Shown: positions 20,502 through 28,889 of the stretch, one piece after another
Layout of the letters: every line of letters begins with the position of its first letter
Numbering within the stretch: position 1 is the first letter of the stretch
Assembly (NCBI GenBank): GCA_022843585.1
Contig: JALHNJ010000001.1
Span: 1,302,001-1,366,000, forward strand
Direction: 5' to 3'
DNA from: Chitinophagaceae bacterium
Lineage (GTDB): Bacteria > Bacteroidota > Bacteroidia > Chitinophagales > Chitinophagaceae
Length of the DNA stretch: 64,000 nucleotides
Translations under genes and position numbers: made by a program
Notes under the pieces: model-generated
The model's database searches: none
What the model was told of the DNA's origin: nothing
Seen by the model: the letters and a program-made list of their open reading frames with translations, nothing else

Positions 20502-20783
20502 TCAATTTAGAACATCAGCAAACTCCGGCTTCTTTTTAAATACAGCATTTGCAAAAGGGCATAGTGGAATAATTTTGATAGTGTGTTTGCGGGCATATTC
20601 CACGGCAGTATTTACTAATTGATAGCCCACATTTTGGCCACGCAGTTCATCGCTAACTTCTGTGTGTTCGATTATCATTTTTTCGGTTGAAGGCATGGTG
20701 TAAACCATTTCGGCCAGAATAGCACCTTCTTCGCCAACATAAAAAAGACCTTTAGAGCCAACTTGTTTGTGATGAATGACCAT
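20502..20783 (-). CDS. Small GNAT-like N-acetyltransferase (YidJ/Gtn1 type)
   Basis: This 93-residue protein is the short acetyltransferase-like family typified by human GATD/Gtn1 and COG2388. Visible motifs are AEMVYTMPSTEKMIIEHTEV, then the acetyl-CoA-binding SDELRGQNVGYQLVNTAVEYAR, and the diagnostic IIPLCPFANAVFKKKPEF with its Cys. The acceptor substrate is unknown. It is divergent from the trp operon; its start codon lies 33 nt from the trp promoter -33 box. Confidence 0.85.
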   Translation of the reverse strand: MVIHHKQVGSKGLFYVGEEGAILAEMVYTMPSTEKMIIEHTEVSDELRGQNVGYQLVNTAVEYARKHTIKIIPLCPFANAVFKKKPEFADVLN

Positions 20784-20815: not shown

Positions 20816-20846
20816 TTTGTGAATGTCGATTTTGCTTTTATATTTG
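20816..20846 (+). promoter_or_regulatory. Promoter of the trp operon
   Basis: TTTG at 20816-20819, 19 nt, then TATATTTG at 20839-20846 matches the Bacteroidota promoter consensus at both boxes and spacing. Transcription would begin about 4-6 nt downstream, at or next to the GTG (20851) that opens the Trp-rich leader frame. Confidence 0.75.
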
Positions 20847-20850
20847 CCCT

Positions 20851-20907
20851 GTGATAAAGCATACAAACAATATTTGGTGGTGGCATACAACTCTAAGGGG
20901 TCTGTAA
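20851..20907 (+). CDS. trpL: trp operon leader peptide with three consecutive Trp codons
   Basis: A short frame GTG...TAA encodes 18 residues, MIKHTNNIWWWHTTLRGL, with TGG TGG TGG at 20875-20883. Three Trp codons in a row, in a short frame between a promoter and trpE and just upstream of competing hairpins, are the hallmark of ribosome-mediated attenuation. In this frame the only usual start codon is the GTG at 20851; no ATG is available. The stop codon directly follows the antiterminator left arm (20897-20904), so a ribosome finishing the leader would cover that arm, while one stalled at Trp would leave most of it free. Confidence 0.83.
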   Translation: MIKHTNNIWWWHTTLRGL

Positions 20908-20970
20908 TGTCATAAATCTGTATTGTACCATTATATTCAGGCCCCGACATAGTTCGGGGCTTTTATTTTA
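20897..20970 (+). promoter_or_regulatory. trp attenuator: antiterminator and terminator hairpins
   Basis: The terminator is GCCCCGA (20941-20947) paired with TCGGGGC (20954-20960), followed by TTTTATTTTA, 16 nt before the trpE ATG. The alternative antiterminator pairs GGGGTCTG (20897-20904) with CAGGCCCC (20938-20945), eight pairs including one G-U, and uses up the left arm of the terminator. The two structures cannot coexist. A separate 1:2 pause hairpin is not obvious. Confidence 0.82.
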
Positions 20971-20976
20971 TACCAA

Positions 20977-22392
20977 ATGAAGAAGATAGCAATAAATACA
21001 ACTTGTAAAAGATTGCTGGCAGATGTATTCACACCTGTAAGCATCTACCTGCGGCTACGGGATAAATTCCGGGATACAATTCTGCTGGAAAGTACTGACC
21101 ATCATTCATCAGAAAACAGCTATTCGTTCATCTGTATCAATGCCATTGGTGGAATGGAAATCCGTTCAGCAGATACCATCGAATTTAAACTACCGGGACA
21201 GAAGCCAGAAAAAGTTCCGTTAAAAAATACTAACGAAGTGCCGCATCTATTGTGGGATTTCATGCAAAAGTTTGATATAAAGAAAGGCGAAACAAAGGAA
21301 GAAAAATTTGCACAAGGACTATTCGGTTATACCACTTATGATGCAGTGCAGTTCTTTGATACTGTAAAACTGACAACCGACAACCGACAATCGACAGATA
21401 TTCCTCTGATGCGTTACCGACTTTACCAATACGTAATTGCCATCAATCACTTCAAAGACGAACTATTCATCTGCGAGAATAAGATCAACGGAGTTGAAAG
21501 CGATCTTGCAGCAGTAGAGTCGTTGATAAGAAGTAAAGATGTTCCTGTTTATCCTTTTAGTGCAAAAGGGGAAGAAAGCTCGAACATGACTGACGAAGCA
21601 TATAAAGAAATGGTGAAGCAGGGTATTGCAAGTTGTCACAGAGGCGATGTGTTTCAAATTGTATTGAGCCGAAGATTTCAGCAAAAATTCATTGGTGATG
21701 AATTTAATGTGTACAGGGCCTTGCGCAGTGTAAACCCTTCACCATATTTATTCTTTTTCGATTACGGAGATTATAAATTAATGGGCTCATCGCCGGAAGC
21801 ACAATTGGTTATTAGCAATGGCAAGGCAGTCGTACATCCAATTGCCGGCACCTTTAAAAGAACAGGCGATGATGAAGCAGATAAAATTGCTACCGAAACA
21901 TTATTAAAAGATCCCAAGGAAAATGCCGAACATGTAATGCTGGTAGATTTGGCAAGGAATGATTTGAGCCGTTTATGCGATGACGTAGAAGTAGCACATT
22001 ATCGCCAGATACAATATTTTTCTCATGTTATTCATTTGGTAAGTGAAGTAGTGGGTAAAGTAAGAGCAGGAAGTAATCCATTTGAAATGGTAGCGAAAAC
22101 TTTTCCTGCCGGTACTTTAAGTGGGGCACCAAAATTTAAAGCTATGAGTTTGATCGATTCATTTGAACCAACTTCAAGAAGTTATTACGGTGGTGCTATC
22201 GGATTTATGGGATTTGATGGCAGTTGCAATCATGCCATTATGATCAGAACATTTTTAAGCAGGAATAATACACTAACATACCAGGCAGGTGCTGGTGTGG
22301 TGGCTGCAAGTAATCCTGAGAGTGAATTGCAGGAAGTAAATAATAAATTAGGGGCGTTAAAAAAGGCTATTGTGTTAGCAGAAAATATTTGA
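20977..22392 (+). CDS. trpE: Anthranilate synthase component I
   Basis: TrpE converts chorismate to anthranilate with ammonia from TrpG, the first committed step to tryptophan. The 471-residue protein has the N-terminal regulatory region with LLESTDHHSSENSYSFI (the LLES feedback-binding type motif) and the chorismate-binding core: SPEAQLV, HPIAGTFKRTGDDEAD, EHVMLVDLARNDLSR, FPAGTLSGAPKFKAM, YYGGAIGFMGFDG and QAGAGVVAASNPESE. It is the first gene of the operon, behind the attenuator. Three heptamer copies at 21373-21393 give the local residues TTDNRQST. Confidence 0.97.
   Translation: MKKIAINTTCKRLLADVFTPVSIYLRLRDKFRDTILLESTDHHSSENSYSFICINAIGGMEIRSADTIEFKLPGQKPEKVPLKNTNEVPHLLWDFMQKFDIKKGETKEEKFAQGLFGYTTYDAVQFFDTVKLTTDNRQSTDIPLMRYRLYQYVIAINHFKDELFICENKINGVESDLAAVESLIRSKDVPVYPFSAKGEESSNMTDEAYKEMVKQGIASCHRGDVFQIVLSRRFQQKFIGDEFNVYRALRSVNPSPYLFFFDYGDYKLMGSSPEAQLVISNGKAVVHPIAGTFKRTGDDEADKIATETLLKDPKENAEHVMLVDLARNDLSRLCDDVEVAHYRQIQYFSHVIHLVSEVVGKVRAGSNPFEMVAKTFPAGTLSGAPKFKAMSLIDSFEPTSRSYYGGAIGFMGFDGSCNHAIMIRTFLSRNNTLTYQAGAGVVAASNPESELQEVNNKLGALKKAIVLAENI
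21373..21393 (+). repeat. Three tandem heptamers (ACAACCG) within trpE
   Basis: ACAACCG is repeated at 21373-21379 and 21380-21386, with a third copy (ACAATCG) at 21387-21393. Three copies give 21 nt and keep the frame; gain or loss of one would shift it. Confidence 0.6.
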
Positions 22393-22393
22393 T

Positions 22394-22966
22394 ATGAAGA
22401 TCCTTGTTTTTGATAATTACGATTCATTCACTTACAATCTTGTCCATTTGGTAGAAAAGATAACGCATACAAAAGTTGATGTGTATCGAAATGACCAGAT
22501 AGCTATGGAGAAAGTAAAGGAGTATGATAAGATCATTTTATCTCCCGGCCCGGGTATTCCTGAAGAAGCCGGAATGTTATTGCCATTGATAAAAGAATAC
22601 GCAGCCACTAAATCTATCCTTGGTGTTTGTCTTGGTCACCAGGCGATAGGTGAAGCTTTTGGTGGGTCGTTGACAAATTTGTCAACAGTCTATCATGGTG
22701 TGGCTACTCCTGTAAAGATTGACGTAACTAAAAAGTCTCAGTTGTTTAATGGTTTGCCCAATACTTTAGAAGTTGGTCGTTATCATAGTTGGATTATAAA
22801 TGAAAATAATTTCCCTGCTGAATTGGAAGTAACTGCAAGAGATGAGAATAGTTATATTATGGCATTGCAACATAAAAAATATGATTTGCAGGGGGTGCAG
22901 TTTCATCCGGAAAGTGTGTTGACACCAAAGGGAGAAGATATTTTACGGAACTGGTTGAAGAACTAA
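22394..22966 (+). CDS. trpG: Anthranilate synthase component II (glutamine amidotransferase)
   Basis: TrpG supplies ammonia from glutamine to TrpE. The 190-residue class I glutaminase shows DNYDSFTYNLVHLVE, LSPGPGIPEEAG, the nucleophile Cys in LGVCLGHQAIGE, VGRYHSW, and the catalytic GVQFHPESVLTPKG His/Glu. It begins 1 nt after the trpE stop, so translation is probably coupled to give equal subunits. Such proteins can also serve PabB; no pabB is seen here. Confidence 0.97.
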   Translation: MKILVFDNYDSFTYNLVHLVEKITHTKVDVYRNDQIAMEKVKEYDKIILSPGPGIPEEAGMLLPLIKEYAATKSILGVCLGHQAIGEAFGGSLTNLSTVYHGVATPVKIDVTKKSQLFNGLPNTLEVGRYHSWIINENNFPAELEVTARDENSYIMALQHKKYDLQGVQFHPESVLTPKGEDILRNWLKN

Positions 22967-22990
22967 TTTGAAAAATTTGTAAATGATACA

Positions 22991-23983
22991 ATGAAGAAAA
23001 TACTTCAATTTTTATTCGAGCATAAAACATTAAGCCGGGAAGCCGCAAAGGATGTTTTAGTCAACATAGGTAAAGGCGTGTACAACGAACATGAGGTAAC
23101 CGCTTTTATGACGGTGTACCTGATGCGAAGTATTACTATTGAGGAATTGCAAGGTTTCAGAGATGCATTGTTAGAATTATGTGTAAAAGCAGATTTGAGT
23201 GAGAATGATACATTAGACATCGTTGGTACCGGTGGTGATGGAAAGAATACTTTTAACATTTCTACACTTTCTTGTTTTATAGTGGCAGGCACCGGGCAAA
23301 AAGTGGCGAAACATGGAAACTATGGTGCATCGTCCATCAGCGGAGCAAGTAATGTGATGGAACAATTAGGTTATACTTTTAGTAATGATAACAATAAACT
23401 GAAAAGGGAAATGGAAGAGGCGGGTATCTGCTTCTTGCATGCACCCTTATTTCATCCTGCATTAAAAACGGTTGGGCCAATAAGAAAGAACCTGGCCATG
23501 CGGACCTTCTTCAACATGCTTGGGCCAATGGCGAATCCTGCACATCCTAAATTTCAATTGGTAGGGGTGTATAGTTTGGAAATGGCGAGAATTTACAATT
23601 ACTTATTGCAGCAAACGGAAAAAGCCTTCACCATCATTCATAGTTTAGACGGATATGACGAGATTTCGTTGACCAACGATACTAAAGTAATAACTAATGA
23701 AGGTGAACGAATAATGACACCGGAACAGCTCGGAAAACGTATGGTTTCACCAGAAGATATTAGTGGGGGAAACAGTGTGGAAGATGCAGCGAAGATTTTC
23801 ACCACTATATTAAAAGGAGAAGGGACATTTGCACAAAATGCTGTCGTGCTGGCTAATGCAGCCATGGCTTTACATTGCACAGGAAAGTATAAAACTTATG
23901 AAGATGCATATAATGCAGCAGTAGTAAGTTTAGAAAGCGGAAAAGCGAATGAATGCCTGACAAAGCTTGTAGGAATGTCTTGA
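22991..23983 (+). CDS. trpD: Anthranilate phosphoribosyltransferase
   Basis: TrpD transfers phosphoribose from PRPP to anthranilate. The 330-residue protein carries DIVGTGGDGKNTFNIST, the PRPP-binding signature, KHGNYGASSISGASNVMEQLG, and RTFFNMLGPMANPAHP. The length is normal. The gene follows trpG after 24 nt in the same operon. It is a stand-alone TrpD, not fused to TrpG. Confidence 0.97.
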   Translation: MKKILQFLFEHKTLSREAAKDVLVNIGKGVYNEHEVTAFMTVYLMRSITIEELQGFRDALLELCVKADLSENDTLDIVGTGGDGKNTFNISTLSCFIVAGTGQKVAKHGNYGASSISGASNVMEQLGYTFSNDNNKLKREMEEAGICFLHAPLFHPALKTVGPIRKNLAMRTFFNMLGPMANPAHPKFQLVGVYSLEMARIYNYLLQQTEKAFTIIHSLDGYDEISLTNDTKVITNEGERIMTPEQLGKRMVSPEDISGGNSVEDAAKIFTTILKGEGTFAQNAVVLANAAMALHCTGKYKTYEDAYNAAVVSLESGKANECLTKLVGMS

Positions 23984-24029
23984 TACTGGAAGTTTTGAAT
24001 TTTTATTTTTGAATATTGACTTAATACCA

Positions 24030-24824
24030 ATGGATATTTTAGAAACGATCACTGCTGCAAAAAGACTTGAAGTAGAAAAATTCAAACCAATGAGTAGTAT
24101 CGAAAGGTTTGAAAAGGATGGCTTTTTCTGGCAGATAAGAACCCGTTCGCTGGTGCAGAGTTTATTGCTGCCGGGAAGTACCGGCATCATTGCGGAGTTT
24201 AAAAGAAAAAGCCCAAGTAAGGGATGGTTCAAAACAAAAGAATTGGAAGTGGAACCTGTTGTTGTTGGTTACAACAAACATTCAGCCGGAATTTCTGTGT
24301 TAACCAACGATGAATTTTTTGGCGGCGATTTAGATGACCTGATACAAACAAAAGTGGTGAGTGATATACCGGTGCTGCGTAAAGATTTCATCATTGATAA
24401 ATGGCAGATCGCTGAAGCAAAAGCTTTTGGTGCAGATGTGATTTTACTTATAGCAGCTTGTCTAACACCGGCAGAAGTAAAAGATTTTGCAGCCTATACA
24501 AGAAGTATTGGCCTGGAATCAATACTTGAAGTTCATAATGAGGAAGAGCTGGGACATATTTGTGATGAAGTGGACATGGTAGGCGTAAACAATCGCAACC
24601 TGAAAACATTTGAGGTTGATATTCAAACATCTTTAAACCTAATTGATAAAATTCCTGGTGGAAAACCGGCTATAAGCGAAAGTGGTATCAGTAATGCCGA
24701 TGCTATTGTAACTTTAAAGGCGGCTGGATATAAAGGATTTCTGATTGGTGAGACTTTTATGAAAGAAGCCGACCCAACGATTGCTTTTGCTGATTTTATA
24801 AATCAACTAAATGCAAAAGCGTAA
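24030..24824 (+). CDS. trpC: Indole-3-glycerol phosphate synthase
   Basis: TrpC closes the indole ring from carboxyphenylamino-deoxyribulose phosphate. The frame is open from a TTG at 24009, but ATG at 24030 (MDILETI) is the normal start. Motifs are IIAEFKRKSPSKGW, the catalytic LRKDFIIDKWQI, DVILLIAACL, GVNNRNLKTFEVD and ISESGISNADAI, all standard for a TIM-barrel TrpC of about 264 residues. Its stop overlaps the next start by 1 nt. Confidence 0.97.
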   Translation: MDILETITAAKRLEVEKFKPMSSIERFEKDGFFWQIRTRSLVQSLLLPGSTGIIAEFKRKSPSKGWFKTKELEVEPVVVGYNKHSAGISVLTNDEFFGGDLDDLIQTKVVSDIPVLRKDFIIDKWQIAEAKAFGADVILLIAACLTPAEVKDFAAYTRSIGLESILEVHNEEELGHICDEVDMVGVNNRNLKTFEVDIQTSLNLIDKIPGGKPAISESGISNADAIVTLKAAGYKGFLIGETFMKEADPTIAFADFINQLNAKA

Positions 24825-25459
24825 TGAGAGTCAAAGTTTGCGGCATGACATTGCCCGAACAGGTGAATGCCCTTGAAGAAATGGGTGTTGACCTGGCAGG
24901 TTTTATTTTTTATCCCAAATCGCCGAGATATATGGGATTGAAAATTGCACCCGATAAAATGAAAAAGATTGGGGGCCGAATCGGTAAGGTCGGTGTGTTC
25001 GTTAACGAAACCTACGAAAACATCATGAAGACGGTGGAGGACTACCGGTTAGACATGGTGCAATTGCATGGCGATGAATCGGAACGTTTTTGTGATAAGC
25101 TCTCTGATTATGTAACGGTGATTAAAGCGTTTCGGTTAGGAATTAATGACCCGATTGAATGGGTGGCAAGACCCTATAATGAATATGCAGATATGTTTAT
25201 GTTCGATACATTGGGAGTTGGATATGGCGGAACCGGAAAGAAGCTGGACATTAATATATTGATGGATAAACAAATTGATAAATTGTTTTTACTGAGCGGA
25301 GGAGTAGAACCAGGTGATGTAGCGAAGCTGAAAGAATTTGCTAATGAACCAGTAGCTAAAAAATTATTTGCGGTTGACCTGGGAAACAAATTTGAAGTAG
25401 TGGCCGGAGTGAAAGATATTAATATGATAGAATCTTTTGTAAACGAATTAAGAAAATAA
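24824..25459 (+). CDS. trpF: Phosphoribosylanthranilate isomerase, first and more divergent copy
   Basis: TrpF isomerises phosphoribosylanthranilate to the ribulose form (Amadori rearrangement). This 211-residue TIM barrel keeps the general-base Cys in VKVCGMT, MVQLHGDES, the catalytic Asp in MFDTLG and the LLSGGVEPGDV phosphate loop. It differs from most TrpF proteins at the C-terminal phosphate loop (DLGNKFEVVAGVKD) and at GGTGKKLDIN, where GGTG..FDW is usual. It starts within the trpC stop codon. A paralogue follows 10 nt later, so it may have taken a shifted substrate range or may simply be redundant. Confidence 0.88.
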   Translation: MRVKVCGMTLPEQVNALEEMGVDLAGFIFYPKSPRYMGLKIAPDKMKKIGGRIGKVGVFVNETYENIMKTVEDYRLDMVQLHGDESERFCDKLSDYVTVIKAFRLGINDPIEWVARPYNEYADMFMFDTLGVGYGGTGKKLDINILMDKQIDKLFLLSGGVEPGDVAKLKEFANEPVAKKLFAVDLGNKFEVVAGVKDINMIESFVNELRK

Positions 25460-25469
25460 AATAGTAACG

Positions 25470-26099
25470 ATGAATATTAAAGTATGCGGCATCACCGAAA
25501 TGAAACAACTGCAACAGCTAGACGGGTTGGATATTGATTTTGCAGGATTGATCTTTTACAAAGAATCTCCCCGCTATATTGGCGATAAGATTTCTAAAAC
25601 AGAATTAAAGAAGGCTGATCTTGATATAAAGAAAGTGGGTGTATTTGTAAACCCGGAGATGATCGATGTGTTAGATGCAATTGACGACTACGGATTAGAG
25701 GTAGTACAATTACATGGGGATGAAAGCCCCGAAATGTGCGAAGACCTGAGCAGCGAAGTAGAAGTGATAAAAGCTTTTAGAGTAACGGATGGGGTGGATA
25801 TTGATGAACTGGTGGTACCTTATGATGCTGTTTGTGATTATTATTTATTTGACACCGGTGGATTAAAAGAAAGTTTTGGTGGCACGGGCCAGCAATTTGA
25901 CTGGACCATTTTAACTAAAGCAAAAATTGAAAAACCTTTCTTTTTAAGTGGTGGTATTGGTGTAGATGATGCAGTTAGAATAAAAGCATTCAAACATCCT
26001 GATTATTTTGGTGTTGATATTAATAGTCGTTTTGAAAAGGAGCCTGGTGTGAAGGATATGGGATTGGTGTTGCAGTTTAAGCAGGGGTTGAAGAGGTAG
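25470..26099 (+). CDS. trpF: Phosphoribosylanthranilate isomerase, second and canonical copy
   Basis: This 209-residue TrpF has the standard motifs: VCGITEM with the catalytic Cys, AGLIFYKESPRYIG, VVQLHGDESPE, LFDTGG with the catalytic Asp, FGGTGQQFDW, FLSGGIG, and FGVDINSRFEKEPGVKD. It is the better match to known TrpF and the likely main enzyme. It arose next to the first copy by tandem duplication, judging by similarity along the whole length, but the two are well diverged. It is followed by an 85-nt gap. Confidence 0.93.
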   Translation: MNIKVCGITEMKQLQQLDGLDIDFAGLIFYKESPRYIGDKISKTELKKADLDIKKVGVFVNPEMIDVLDAIDDYGLEVVQLHGDESPEMCEDLSSEVEVIKAFRVTDGVDIDELVVPYDAVCDYYLFDTGGLKESFGGTGQQFDWTILTKAKIEKPFFLSGGIGVDDAVRIKAFKHPDYFGVDINSRFEKEPGVKDMGLVLQFKQGLKR

Positions 26100-26184
26100 G
26101 CTAAGAGATTAAAACAGATATAGAGAGGAATAGGTTAGTGTGTTAAATTCATTATTATCCCTTAACAGTTTAGATAACTTGCAT

Positions 26185-26751
26185 ATGTATAAATGCCTCT
26201 TTTTTTTGCTATTGCAATCATGTTTTGTTCATGCTCAAAAGGATGATAAAAATATTTATCAAACAGTTATTGAGTCTTCTGCGAAGGAAGGTGAGTTTTT
26301 TTATGTTATTGGCAAAAAGACAGATTCTAAAGATTTGAAAAATATCTTTTGGGAAGAAAGAAATAATATTATTGGATTTGATATAAACTTTCGTAATAAT
26401 GTAGATACATCATGGAAGGAACTTTTAATTAAAATAAAGAAAATTGAGTTCAATGAGATTTCTATAAAGCGGTTACCTTCAAGTAATATAGAATTCGTTT
26501 CTCTTAAACGGATTAAAAATTTTTTCCGAAAAGGTGTAGAAAAAGGATGGCTTGATTTTTATTCTGAATATCCCAAATCAAAAGGGTTTAGAAGTTTTTC
26601 AAGAATAATTTATTCCGTCGATAACAACAAAGCCGTCGTTTATCTTGGAGTTCATAGAGGAAGTTTGCAGGGATTTGGAACAATTTATTTTTTAACCTAT
26701 GAAAATGACAAATGGGTTATAAATAACAGGGTTGAAATATGGGTAGCTTAA
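26185..26751 (+). CDS. Hypothetical exported protein inside the trp operon
   Basis: This protein of about 188 residues has a signal peptide (MYKCLFFLLLQSCFVHAQ); that is why ATG 26185 is preferred to the upstream GTG at 26140. The rest is a small alpha/beta domain with Lys-rich and aromatic segments (NIFWEERNNIIGFDIN, DFYSEYPKSKGFRSFSRIIYSV, YLGVHRGSLQGFGTIYFLTYEN, DKWVINNRVEIW). I do not recognise it. It is visibly more AT-rich than its trp neighbours, has no role in tryptophan synthesis that I can see, and is followed by a dispersed repeat. It looks like an insertion in the operon. Confidence 0.65.
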   Translation: MYKCLFFLLLQSCFVHAQKDDKNIYQTVIESSAKEGEFFYVIGKKTDSKDLKNIFWEERNNIIGFDINFRNNVDTSWKELLIKIKKIEFNEISIKRLPSSNIEFVSLKRIKNFFRKGVEKGWLDFYSEYPKSKGFRSFSRIIYSVDNNKAVVYLGVHRGSLQGFGTIYFLTYENDKWVINNRVEIWVA

Positions 26752-26761
26752 ATGCTCATTA

Positions 26762-26809
26762 GCGAACAGAACCCTGAAGAGTGCGACGCAACTGACGATG
26801 ATAGTAGTA
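26762..26809. repeat. Dispersed intergenic repeat, copy B
   Basis: This 48-nt stretch aligns without gaps to 13126-13173 at 37 of 48 positions and partly to 61171-61211. It lies directly after the orphan gene, before trpB. Confidence 0.6.
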
Positions 26810-26836
26810 CTACAGCTGGGATAATAAAAAATAAAA

Positions 26837-28027
26837 ATGTCAACCACACAAACATATCAGCAACCAAATTCACAAGGCTACTACGGCTTGTTCGGCGGTG
26901 CTTACATTCCTGAAATGCTGCATCGCAATGTAGAAGAGCTGCGGACAAAGTATTTGGAAATTATTTATGAGGATGAATTTCAAAAAGAGTTTCAATACTT
27001 ACTGAGAGATTATGTGGGTAGGCCAACACCATTGTATTTAGCAGAAAGATTGAGTGAGCAATTCGGCACTACTATTTATTTGAAACGGGAAGACCTTTGT
27101 CATACCGGGGCACATAAAATAAATAATACTATCGGACAGATTTTATTGGCGCAGCGATTGGGTAAGAAAAGAATTATTGCGGAGACAGGTGCGGGTCAGC
27201 ATGGCGTAGCAACAGCTACCGTGTGTGCATTGAAAGGAGTGGAGTGCATTGTGTACATGGGTGAAAAAGACATTGAACGGCAGGCACCGAATGTTGCAAG
27301 AATGAAAATGCTCGGCGCAACAGTGATTCCAGCAACCAGCGGCAGCAAAACATTGAAGGATGCAACGAATGAAGCGATTCGGGATTGGATCAATAATCCA
27401 CATGATACGCATTATATTATAGGCAGTGTGGTAGGGCCGCATCCATATCCTGATATGGTAGCAAGATTTCAAAGTGTGATCAGTGAGGAGATGCGGAAAC
27501 AATTGTTGGAGAAGACTGGTAAGGAATTACCAACTCATGTTATGGCTTGTGTTGGTGGTGGCAGTAATGCAGCCGGAGCATTTTATCATTTCTTAGATGA
27601 GTTGAGTGTGCAATTGATCGCTGTGGAAGCAGCGGGGCATGGAATTGATAGTGGCTTGAGTGCAGCGACTACTGCATTAGGCAAGCCGGGTATTTTACAT
27701 GGCAGTAAAAGTTTGCTGATGCAAACGGAAGATGGACAAGTGGTAGAGCCGCATAGTATTTCTGCAGGGTTAGATTATCCGGGCATCGGTCCGTTGCATG
27801 CACATTTATTCAAAAGCGGACGGGGTGCTTTTTTAAATGTAACGGATGAAGATGCATTGGCAGCAGCATTTGAACTAGCAAAGTTGGAAGGAATTATTCC
27901 GGCATTAGAAACGGCCCATGCATTATCAGCATTAAAGCAACTGAAATTTAAAAAAGAAGATGTAGTTGTGATTTGTTTGAGTGGTAGGGGAGATAAAGAT
28001 TTAGCTACATACATGCAAAAAATGTAA
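26837..28027 (+). CDS. trpB: Tryptophan synthase beta subunit
   Basis: TrpB condenses indole with serine to tryptophan using PLP. The 396-residue protein shows [34 protein letters not shown] with the PLP lysine, [46 protein letters not shown] and CLSGRGDKD, the standard TrpB1 type that works with TrpA. The gene is the penultimate one of the operon. A terminator-like hairpin separates it from trpA. Confidence 0.98.
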
Positions 28028-28048
28028 ACACGGAGATATAGAGTTAGG

Positions 28049-28086
28049 AGAGTTACACAGAGACTCTCAGTGTAACTCTTTTTCTT
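28049..28086 (+). terminator. Terminator-like hairpin between trpB and trpA
   Basis: A 10-bp perfect stem (28049-28058 with 28070-28079) with an 11-nt loop is followed by TTTTTCTT. It may lower trpA expression, or may be a repeat-derived palindrome, since parts of it (AACTCTGTG) recur just downstream. Confidence 0.6.
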
Positions 28087-28106
28087 ATAAACTCTGTGAA
28101 AAAAAA

Positions 28107-28889
28107 ATGAGCAGACTACAACACACATTTCAGCATACAGCAAAAAAGATTCTCAACGTTTACTGCACCGCAGGCTACCCGCAATTAAATTCTACACTGG
28201 AAGTAATGAAAGCCTTACAAGAAAATGGTGCTTCTATCATAGAACTCGGCATGCCCTACAGCGACCCATTAGCGGACGGCCCGGTTATTCAACAAAGCGG
28301 AAGCATTGCATTAGCAAACGGAATGACTATTGCAACACTCTTTGAACAATTAAAAGATTTCAGAAAAAAAATTTCTATTCCGGTGATCCTGATGGGCTAC
28401 ATGAACCCTGTATTACAATACGGATTCGAAAAATTTTGTGCCGATGCAGCAGCAGTTGGTATTGATGGGCTAATTCTGCCCGATTTGCCCGAATATGAAT
28501 TTGAAACCGAATACGGAGCCGTCATTAAAAAATACGGTCTCGATTTTATTTTCCTGGTAACCCCCGAAACTTCGGAAGAACGAATTATGAAATTAGACAG
28601 TCTCAGCACCGGTTTTTTATATGCCGTTTCCTCTTCTTCCACAACCGGAAGCGAAAAAAAATCAGCCAGCCCGGAAGAATACCTGAAAAGGCTGCAATCT
28701 TACAAACTGAAAAATCCCATTTTAGTTGGCTTTGGAATCAGCAATAAACAGAGCTTTGAGGCCGTTTGTAAGTTGGCTGATGGGGCCATTATCGGCAGTG
28801 CCTACATTAAAGCGTTGGAAAACAGCACCAATGTTAATGCAGCCACAAAATCCTTTCTTTCGTCCATATTGCCTGCCCGCCAAATCTGA
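28107..28889 (+). CDS. trpA: Tryptophan synthase alpha subunit
   Basis: TrpA cleaves indole-3-glycerol phosphate and channels indole to TrpB. The 260-residue TIM barrel has the catalytic Glu in IIELGMPYSDPLADGPVIQ, with the catalytic Asp in the same motif, LMGYMNPVLQYG, GLILPDLPEYE, LVTPETSEERI and LVGFGISNKQS. It is the last gene of the operon. No clear terminator is seen in the following 120 nt. Confidence 0.97.
   Translation: MSRLQHTFQHTAKKILNVYCTAGYPQLNSTLEVMKALQENGASIIELGMPYSDPLADGPVIQQSGSIALANGMTIATLFEQLKDFRKKISIPVILMGYMNPVLQYGFEKFCADAAAVGIDGLILPDLPEYEFETEYGAVIKKYGLDFIFLVTPETSEERIMKLDSLSTGFLYAVSSSSTTGSEKKSASPEEYLKRLQSYKLKNPILVGFGISNKQSFEAVCKLADGAIIGSAYIKALENSTNVNAATKSFLSSILPARQI

Follow-up and report, generated by a model that had tools for sequence, protein, structure and literature searches.

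In Escherichia coli, the trp leader has an ordinary 5′ UTR and its stop codon is located before segment 2. Bacteroidota have their own sigma factor and no Shine-Dalgarno initiation. In a survey published in 2010, leader peptides were known only from Proteobacteria and Actinobacteria, with Firmicutes added (PMC2965389). The Bacteroid-trp motif (RF01692) was listed in 2010 as a cis-regulatory candidate of Bacteroidetes (PMC2864571). In 2019, this motif was described upstream of the trp operon of Flavobacterium psychrophilum and likened to the Trp leader of E. coli (PMC6414381). In 2021, strong clues to attenuation by leader peptides upstream of amino-acid operons were reported in the same organism, for which this mechanism was proposed; F. 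psychrophilum belongs to the same phylum as the genome considered here and to a different family (PMC9723704). Classical attenuation had been presented as best known in Proteobacteria in a sequence-only reading of the locus studied here. With Bacteroid-trp listed in 2010 and the clues from F. psychrophilum in 2021, the surprise that this implied was overstated (PMC2864571; PMC6414381; PMC9723704). The kind of element is already known in Bacteroidota and the interest of the present one lies in its near-leaderless start. A precedent for such a start is the leaderless trpL of Sinorhizobium meliloti (rnTrpL/peTrpL), a trp attenuator whose RNA begins at the start codon; it differs in belonging to an Alphaproteobacterium, in its ATG start and in the trans functions shown there (PMC7298713). 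Among the open-licence PubMed Central papers listed in literature searches, none dealt with a trp leader of Chitinophagaceae or with its leaderless start.

The locus belongs to a window of 64,000 nucleotides (the whole stretch of DNA analysed) from a Chitinophagaceae genome, and all its elements are on the plus strand. A promoter of the sigma-A type can be read from the bases, with a −33 element TTTG at 20816-20819 and, after a 19-nt spacer, a −7 element TATATTTG at 20839-20846 (consensus TAnnTTTG). Four bases only separate this box from the GTG, placed at the predicted +1, of an 18-codon leader ORF encoding MIKHTNNIWWWHTTLRGL (20851-20907, stop codon at 20905-20907). Three consecutive TGG codons (20875-20883) are the predicted tryptophan sensor. 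Segment 1 (20881-20893) pairs with positions 20898-20912 of segment 2 (20897-20912), a 1:2 helix that is present both in the minimum free energy (MFE) fold and in the alignment with the Rfam Trp_leader model RF00513, and which covaries among relatives (see below). In the antiterminator, the first part of segment 2, GGGGTCTG at 20897-20904, pairs instead with segment 3, CAGGCCCC at 20938-20945, by seven Watson-Crick pairs and one G-U pair. This right arm shares 7 nt with the 5′ arm of an intrinsic terminator (20939-20970), which consists of a stem of nine pairs in the computed fold (20939-20947 with 20954-20962) followed by a U-rich tail. Helices 1:2, 2:3 and 3:4 thus make up the classical set. 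The promoter, the 18-codon leader, the Trp triplet, the eight-pair antiterminator and the distance of 16 nt to trpE, as given in the sequence-only reading, were found correct to the base by direct reading. Its terminator core (20941-20947 with 20954-20960) is present within a stem longer than claimed, and its otherwise correct anatomy includes neither the 1:2 helix nor the prediction that the GTG is leaderless.

The first regulated gene, trpE (20977-22392, plus strand, ATG at 20977), has TIGR00564 as its best NCBIfam match (6.2e-123, below the curated cut-off). It is followed on the same strand, from 22394 to 28889, by trpG, trpD, trpC, two trpF-like genes, an ORF, trpB and trpA, assigned by NCBIfam search and context, giving the order trpE-G-D-C-F-F-(orf)-B-A. 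The curated cut-off is passed by trpG, trpD, trpB and trpA; the best E-values of trpC (6.3e-76) and of the trpF-like genes (6.9e-46 and 2.3e-46) correspond to matches under it. The two trpF-like genes, of 211 and 209 amino acids, stand in tandem at 24824-26099 in the same operon. No NCBIfam match was obtained for the ORF within the operon (26140-26751, 203 amino acids), nor for the closest ORF upstream of the leader (20502-20783). Since the latter is on the minus strand and since no plus-strand ORF of at least 80 amino acids occurs in the 3 kb before trpE, the terminator most likely serves transcripts of the leader promoter.

Comparison with Rfam shows how the locus stands with respect to described families, none of which reached its gathering score in the window. 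RF00513, of the E. coli type, is the nearest family and aligns over its full length with 36.3 bits (E 3.4e-06), the gathering threshold being 41. The likeness resides in the Trp codons, the 1:2 and 3:4 helices and the intrinsic terminator before trpE. In contrast to RF00513, the start codon is here at the predicted +1 and the left arm of the antiterminator ends within the leader ORF, before the stop codon, as it does in 51 of 78 leaders parsed. RF01692 gave no match in the leader up to E 10 (threshold 49 bits) and none in the rest of the genome; in a scan of 148 genomes with this model, 13 hits were obtained, all in one family (f20). Ten Bacteroid-trp loci were read. All ten resemble the present locus in having a terminator and a short leader with three Trp codons, and a trpE-like ORF was recognized by eye downstream of six of them. 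They differ from it in the distance from box to start codon, which is 16-20 nt in 7/10 loci and 4-5 nt in the other three. Three leaders from beyond the class yielded no box. Finally, 20 of the 79 relatives described below were scanned with Rfam and gave nothing at threshold.

Folding statistics and conservation were used to assess whether this arrangement exceeds chance. The 127-nt leader folds with z = −2.75, two of 200 shuffles being at least as good, and the terminator part alone with z = −2.83, two of 200 shuffles being equal or better. The Trp run on its own proves little, because TGGTGGTGG occurs twice in the 64-kb window (0.27 expected), the second copy being at 27553-27561 in the trpB ORF. 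The decisive test of the leader is conservation. Relatives were taken as the best 80 of 585 loci from a trpE scan of genome contigs, with 63-94% identity to the trpE of the window. Those with a genus name belong to Chitinophaga, Niastella, Niabella, Sediminibacterium, Flavihumibacter, Terrimonas, Paraflavitalea, Pollutibacter, Hydrotalea and Ferruginibacter, ten genera that we take to be Chitinophagaceae. The remaining ones come from metagenomes and carry labels such as Chitinophagaceae or Bacteroidetes; one is oddly labelled Williamsia. One locus without upstream DNA (L148) was left out, and 80 upstream regions, 79 from relatives and that of the window, were compared. In 74 of the 80, there is a leader in which two or more Trp codons directly follow one another. 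A strict terminator test failed in nine of these 74 leaders, and both features are combined in 65/80 upstream regions, to be compared with 2/800 dinucleotide shuffles and with 0/291 regions upstream of ORFs in 400 kb of this genome. The other six upstream regions (L128, L129, L135, L137, L139, L141) have a single-Trp leader with the motif NGWH or TGWH, and the terminator hairpin is retained.

A script searching for leader and hairpin parsed 78 of 81 entries. It missed L148, as well as L105 and L138, in which the Trp leader is present and for which the pattern was too narrow. Three Trp codons in a row occur in 67 of the parsed leaders, two in five and one in six. The start codon is ATG in 74 and GTG in four, ATG being nearly universal at the matching place. 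The C-terminal part of the peptide is typically WWWHTNS..RGL and the amino-terminal part is variable. Loci labelled Chitinophaga (L143-L147, L149) have the same plan, with the terminator stem written in other letters.

Covariation was examined in an alignment of 75 leaders, from which were left out the three script misses, two leaders with a doubtful hairpin (L100, L112) and L141, identical to L139. The consensus fold of this alignment contains the terminator alone, with compensatory changes in 7/9 pairs. When the 2:3 antiterminator is imposed, 75.0% of the cells are paired, the best slid register reaching 57.9%; double-change cells number 30, against a shuffled mean of 13.7 (0/500 shuffles as high), and the covariation score is 0.165, against 0.115 for shuffles. 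For the 1:2 helix, 75.1% of the cells are paired (best slid register 52.4%), with 44 double-change cells against 17.8 in shuffles (0/500 as high) and a score of 0.261 against 0.188. In cells paired, double-change cells and covariation score, both helices exceed all slid registers; these shuffle controls do not remove relatedness. Other measures discriminate less. The count of 2:3 pairs showing a double change does not exceed that of shuffles (275/500 as high). With 1:2, some slid registers match or exceed the true one, both in pairs with a double change (10 versus 9, register −1) and in pair types (26 versus 25 in the true register). Each helix also has a weak pair, formed in 22/75 rows for the antiterminator (columns 40-96) and in 11/75 rows for 1:2 (columns 22-40). 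The alignment of related upstream regions had been suggested in the sequence-only reading, with the possibility that relatives would lack the Trp leader or the alternative pairing. Trp runs in 74/80 and compensatory changes in all three helices were observed, and attenuation was not refuted.

Considering its anatomy, the conserved Trp leader and the covariation of 2:3 and 1:2, classical ribosome-mediated attenuation is the best reading of the locus, and the trp leader is very probably a transcription attenuator built on the classical four-segment plan. Transcription would start at the leader GTG or within one or two bases of it. No Shine-Dalgarno site would be involved in loading the first ribosome, which would bind directly at the nascent 5′ end. 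In the presence of charged tRNA-Trp, this ribosome would reach the stop codon at 20905-20907 and cover segment 2, positions 20897-20904 lying within the last codons. With segment 2 covered, segment 3 would remain available for the terminator 3:4, ending transcription before trpE. If Trp-tRNA is scarce, the ribosome would stall on 20875-20883, mask segment 1 and leave segment 2 open; 2:3 would then form ahead of the synthesis of segment 4, allowing RNA polymerase to continue into the operon. With no ribosome at all, 1:2 could form first, leaving 3:4 to terminate.

The geometry is compatible with these steps. A ribosome footprint extends about 15 nt from the P-site, and a ribosome paused at the Trp codons would reach at most ~20893 and leave 20897-20904 free, these positions being covered by a ribosome at the stop codon. 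In computed folds of the nascent RNA up to 20950, 2:3 forms at −16.5 kcal/mol if the RNA is free from 20894, and RNA free from 20918 reaches only −1.2 kcal/mol. All three folded states of the full RNA up to 20968 contain the terminator, so that the choice would be kinetic. The MFE structure of the nascent RNA without ribosome is 2:3 and not 1:2. Termination without translation would therefore rest on the order of folding, with 1:2 forming first, and this step is the least certain part of the mechanism. Folding of the stalled state across relatives yields at least four antiterminator pairs in 76/76 leaders; as shuffled controls reach 71%, this test adds little. Known biology is not overturned by such an attenuator.

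The position of the start codon deserves separate consideration. In F. psychrophilum, the sigma-A box TAnnTTTG occupies positions −12 to −5 (PMC9723704). Applied to the window, this rule, borrowed from another family of the phylum, puts +1 at 20851, the G of the leader GTG. The distance between box and start codon was measured in 76 leaders (L096 and L099, which are cut, were left out). A relaxed box nAnnTTTG is located 4-9 nt before the start in 72 of them, with 41 at 7 nt. It has the exact form TAnnTTTG in 15 of the 72, and 67 of the 72 box-bearing leaders also have a TTG-like −33 element 17-21 nt before the −7 box. The four leaders without a box 4-9 nt before the start are L083, L114, L120 and L144. 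As a control, 172 genes of the same genome with an intergenic upstream region were considered; 7 have the relaxed box at this place and 4 the exact one, the gene starts having been set mechanically at the first ATG, so that some are wrong. An earlier count of box gaps (69/71) was discarded because it favoured distant perfect boxes. A gap of 4-9 nt would imply a 5′ UTR of 0-5 nt. Leaderless mRNAs make up 5.5% in F. psychrophilum. In Bacteroides thetaiotaomicron, about 3.7% of 5′ UTRs are shorter than 10 nt (PMC7366714), and in Flavobacterium johnsoniae, 5′ UTRs are longer than 10 nt in 87% of transcripts (PMC6847099). As the box is frequent at the leaders and short 5′ UTRs are rare in these three species, its position looks selected, if the promoter assignment is right. 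The trp leader ORF is thus predicted to be near-leaderless, which is the most interesting trait of the system. It would offer a handle on 5′-end initiation by Bacteroidota ribosomes and on transcription-translation coupling.

Sister leaders were recognized in the same genome. A His leader, MTTYTHNHHHFLLSTSRP, precedes hisG, with a box gap of 9 (L185/L242). A Phe/Tyr leader, VTTTNTYFGFYFYYFFSKRPGMLLLKTN, precedes a prephenate dehydratase gene (L211, position 1259); it has a GTG start and a gap of 6, and is likewise predicted to be near-leaderless. An Ile/Val leader, MLKNNIYNVIASIPAIIIVVVIIISSNGGGA, is found on the minus strand of contig C1 at ~1229158-1229312 (L043), its start being ~16 nt behind the box-like TATATTTA. 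By eye, it precedes a branched-chain aminotransferase-like gene, with ilvD further on; it is also the place hit in this genome by the RF00513 scan, below threshold. Behind each of the his, phe and ilv leaders stands a terminator, and its 5′ arm is able to base-pair with the last part of the leader ORF; these pairings were drawn by eye, with no control. Two homoserine dehydrogenase genes of the genome (L209, L210) have no leader before the called start, and the start of a third (L208) is outside the stretch examined. The his leaders were followed further in the family. The hisG gene was detected in 33/40 family genomes; of the 30 loci fetched (L242-L271), 28 had an identifiable gene start. In 26 of these 28 Chitinophagaceae upstream regions, there is a leader containing three or more His codons, with a T run behind it in 24/26. 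The box is 4-9 nt before the start in 11/26 of these leaders and at 10 nt in seven more. Among the Chitinophagaceae relatives, ribosome-mediated attenuation appears to be a usual way of controlling the trp and his operons, with no Rfam model at threshold in the loci tested. It is tempting to imagine, though with somewhat more doubt than confidence, that the leader peptides of amino-acid operons in Chitinophagaceae constitute a leaderless class of their own, in which a sigma-A box 4-10 nt before the start, as in trp and many his leaders, would make the ribosome load on a bare 5′ end and would set ribosome and RNA polymerase in step. If this were true, transcription and translation would be coupled in Bacteroidota, at least at leaders with a fixed sigma-A box.

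Other explanations may be envisaged for the same data. A constitutive partial terminator would lower trp expression by a fixed amount, the Trp codons being incidental. The terminator is indeed the sole helix of the consensus fold, and 6/80 leaders have a terminator hairpin together with a single Trp codon. Such a terminator would, however, account neither for the Trp runs of 74/80 leaders, when Trp run plus terminator is seen in 0/291 control upstreams, nor for the covariation of 2:3 and 1:2. In addition, the His, Ile/Val and Phe/Tyr runs of the sister leaders match the gene downstream, which makes a constitutive terminator very improbable. A structured leader preceding a biosynthesis operon might also be a riboswitch or T-box that binds its ligand, tryptophan or tRNA, directly and without translation. 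This is scarcely credible here, as the conserved core is an ORF with start, Trp codons and stop; furthermore, no Rfam family gave a gathering hit in the window and the 19 Rfam matches found in the leader up to E 10 include no T-box and no riboswitch.

Two further possibilities leave attenuation in place and bear on its details. Promoter and start codon might be elsewhere, with transcription beginning upstream and an ordinary 5′ UTR in place of a near-leaderless start. This is unlikely, while having a real share of the probability: the predicted +1 rests on a rule from another family of the phylum, only 15/72 boxes have the exact sequence TAnnTTTG, the gap is 16-20 nt in 7/10 Bacteroid-trp loci, and no box was detected in three leaders lying outside the class. 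On the other side, the relaxed box is at 4-9 nt in 72/76 leaders, with a −33-like element in 67/72, whereas ordinary genes show the relaxed pattern in 7/172 cases and the exact one in 4/172. Alternatively, the leader peptide or the terminated leader RNA could also act in trans, like peTrpL and rnTrpL of S. meliloti, whose leaderless trpL is the precedent (PMC7298713). The conservation of a WWWHTNS..RGL-like peptide would agree with such a role, but the conserved part of the peptide coincides with RNA segments 1 and 2 while the amino-terminal part varies, and an action in trans in addition to attenuation is improbable.

Beyond the family, leaders with three consecutive Trp codons were seen by eye before trpE-like or trpD-like ORFs in four families of the same class (f18, f19, f20, f25) and in one outside it (f38). 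Scans with covariance models were of limited use in this respect. RF00513 gave hits in 28 of 296 Bacteroidota genomes, with none over threshold; as it missed the trp leader of the genome studied here, this tally was dropped as a distribution. In the 30 RF00513 loci inspected, a leader with three Trp codons was seen by eye in L032, L035, L049 and L052, L043 is the ilv leader and the rest have none. A second scan was performed with R1, a model built in part from the present leader, which gave hits in 31/296 genomes at E ≤ 0.001; many weaker hits are without a Trp run, and only those with a visible TGG run were counted. In the genome studied here, R1 has one strong hit, at 85.8 bits, which is the leader itself. 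The 29 other matches up to E 1 have at best 33.9 bits, and four of them, on inspection, showed no leader Trp run. As these scans miss weak and known members, no rate of distribution was derived from them.

Leaders rich in other amino acids came to light in the course of these inspections. In a genus of family f20 taken for Flavobacterium (g32), short ORFs rich in Met and Cys precede a gene that by eye resembles an O-acetylhomoserine sulfhydrylase gene (L212-L232). Such ORFs were first seen in L167 and often occur in tandem; in L212, for instance, a terminator-like hairpin stands behind both MNLIICNMCCMMWKLPQSTSIA and MNVIAKNMMSCIMMHMMMCCITICYYQELKT. The gene start could be located in 18 of the 21 loci scanned, and all 18 have at least one short ORF with three or more further Met or Cys residues, a few being weak. 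Three such loci were searched with Rfam without any match at threshold, L232 giving a weak one to Leu_leader (28.5 bits, threshold 50). These leaders are candidate tandem attenuators sensing Met and Cys. Another locus of the same genus (L168) has, 5′ of a TonB-dependent receptor-like gene identified by eye, a leader-like ORF, MKFTVNNMMSCKMPEYSAEILL, with a terminator hairpin, which is possibly a Met/Cys attenuator acting on an outer-membrane transporter.
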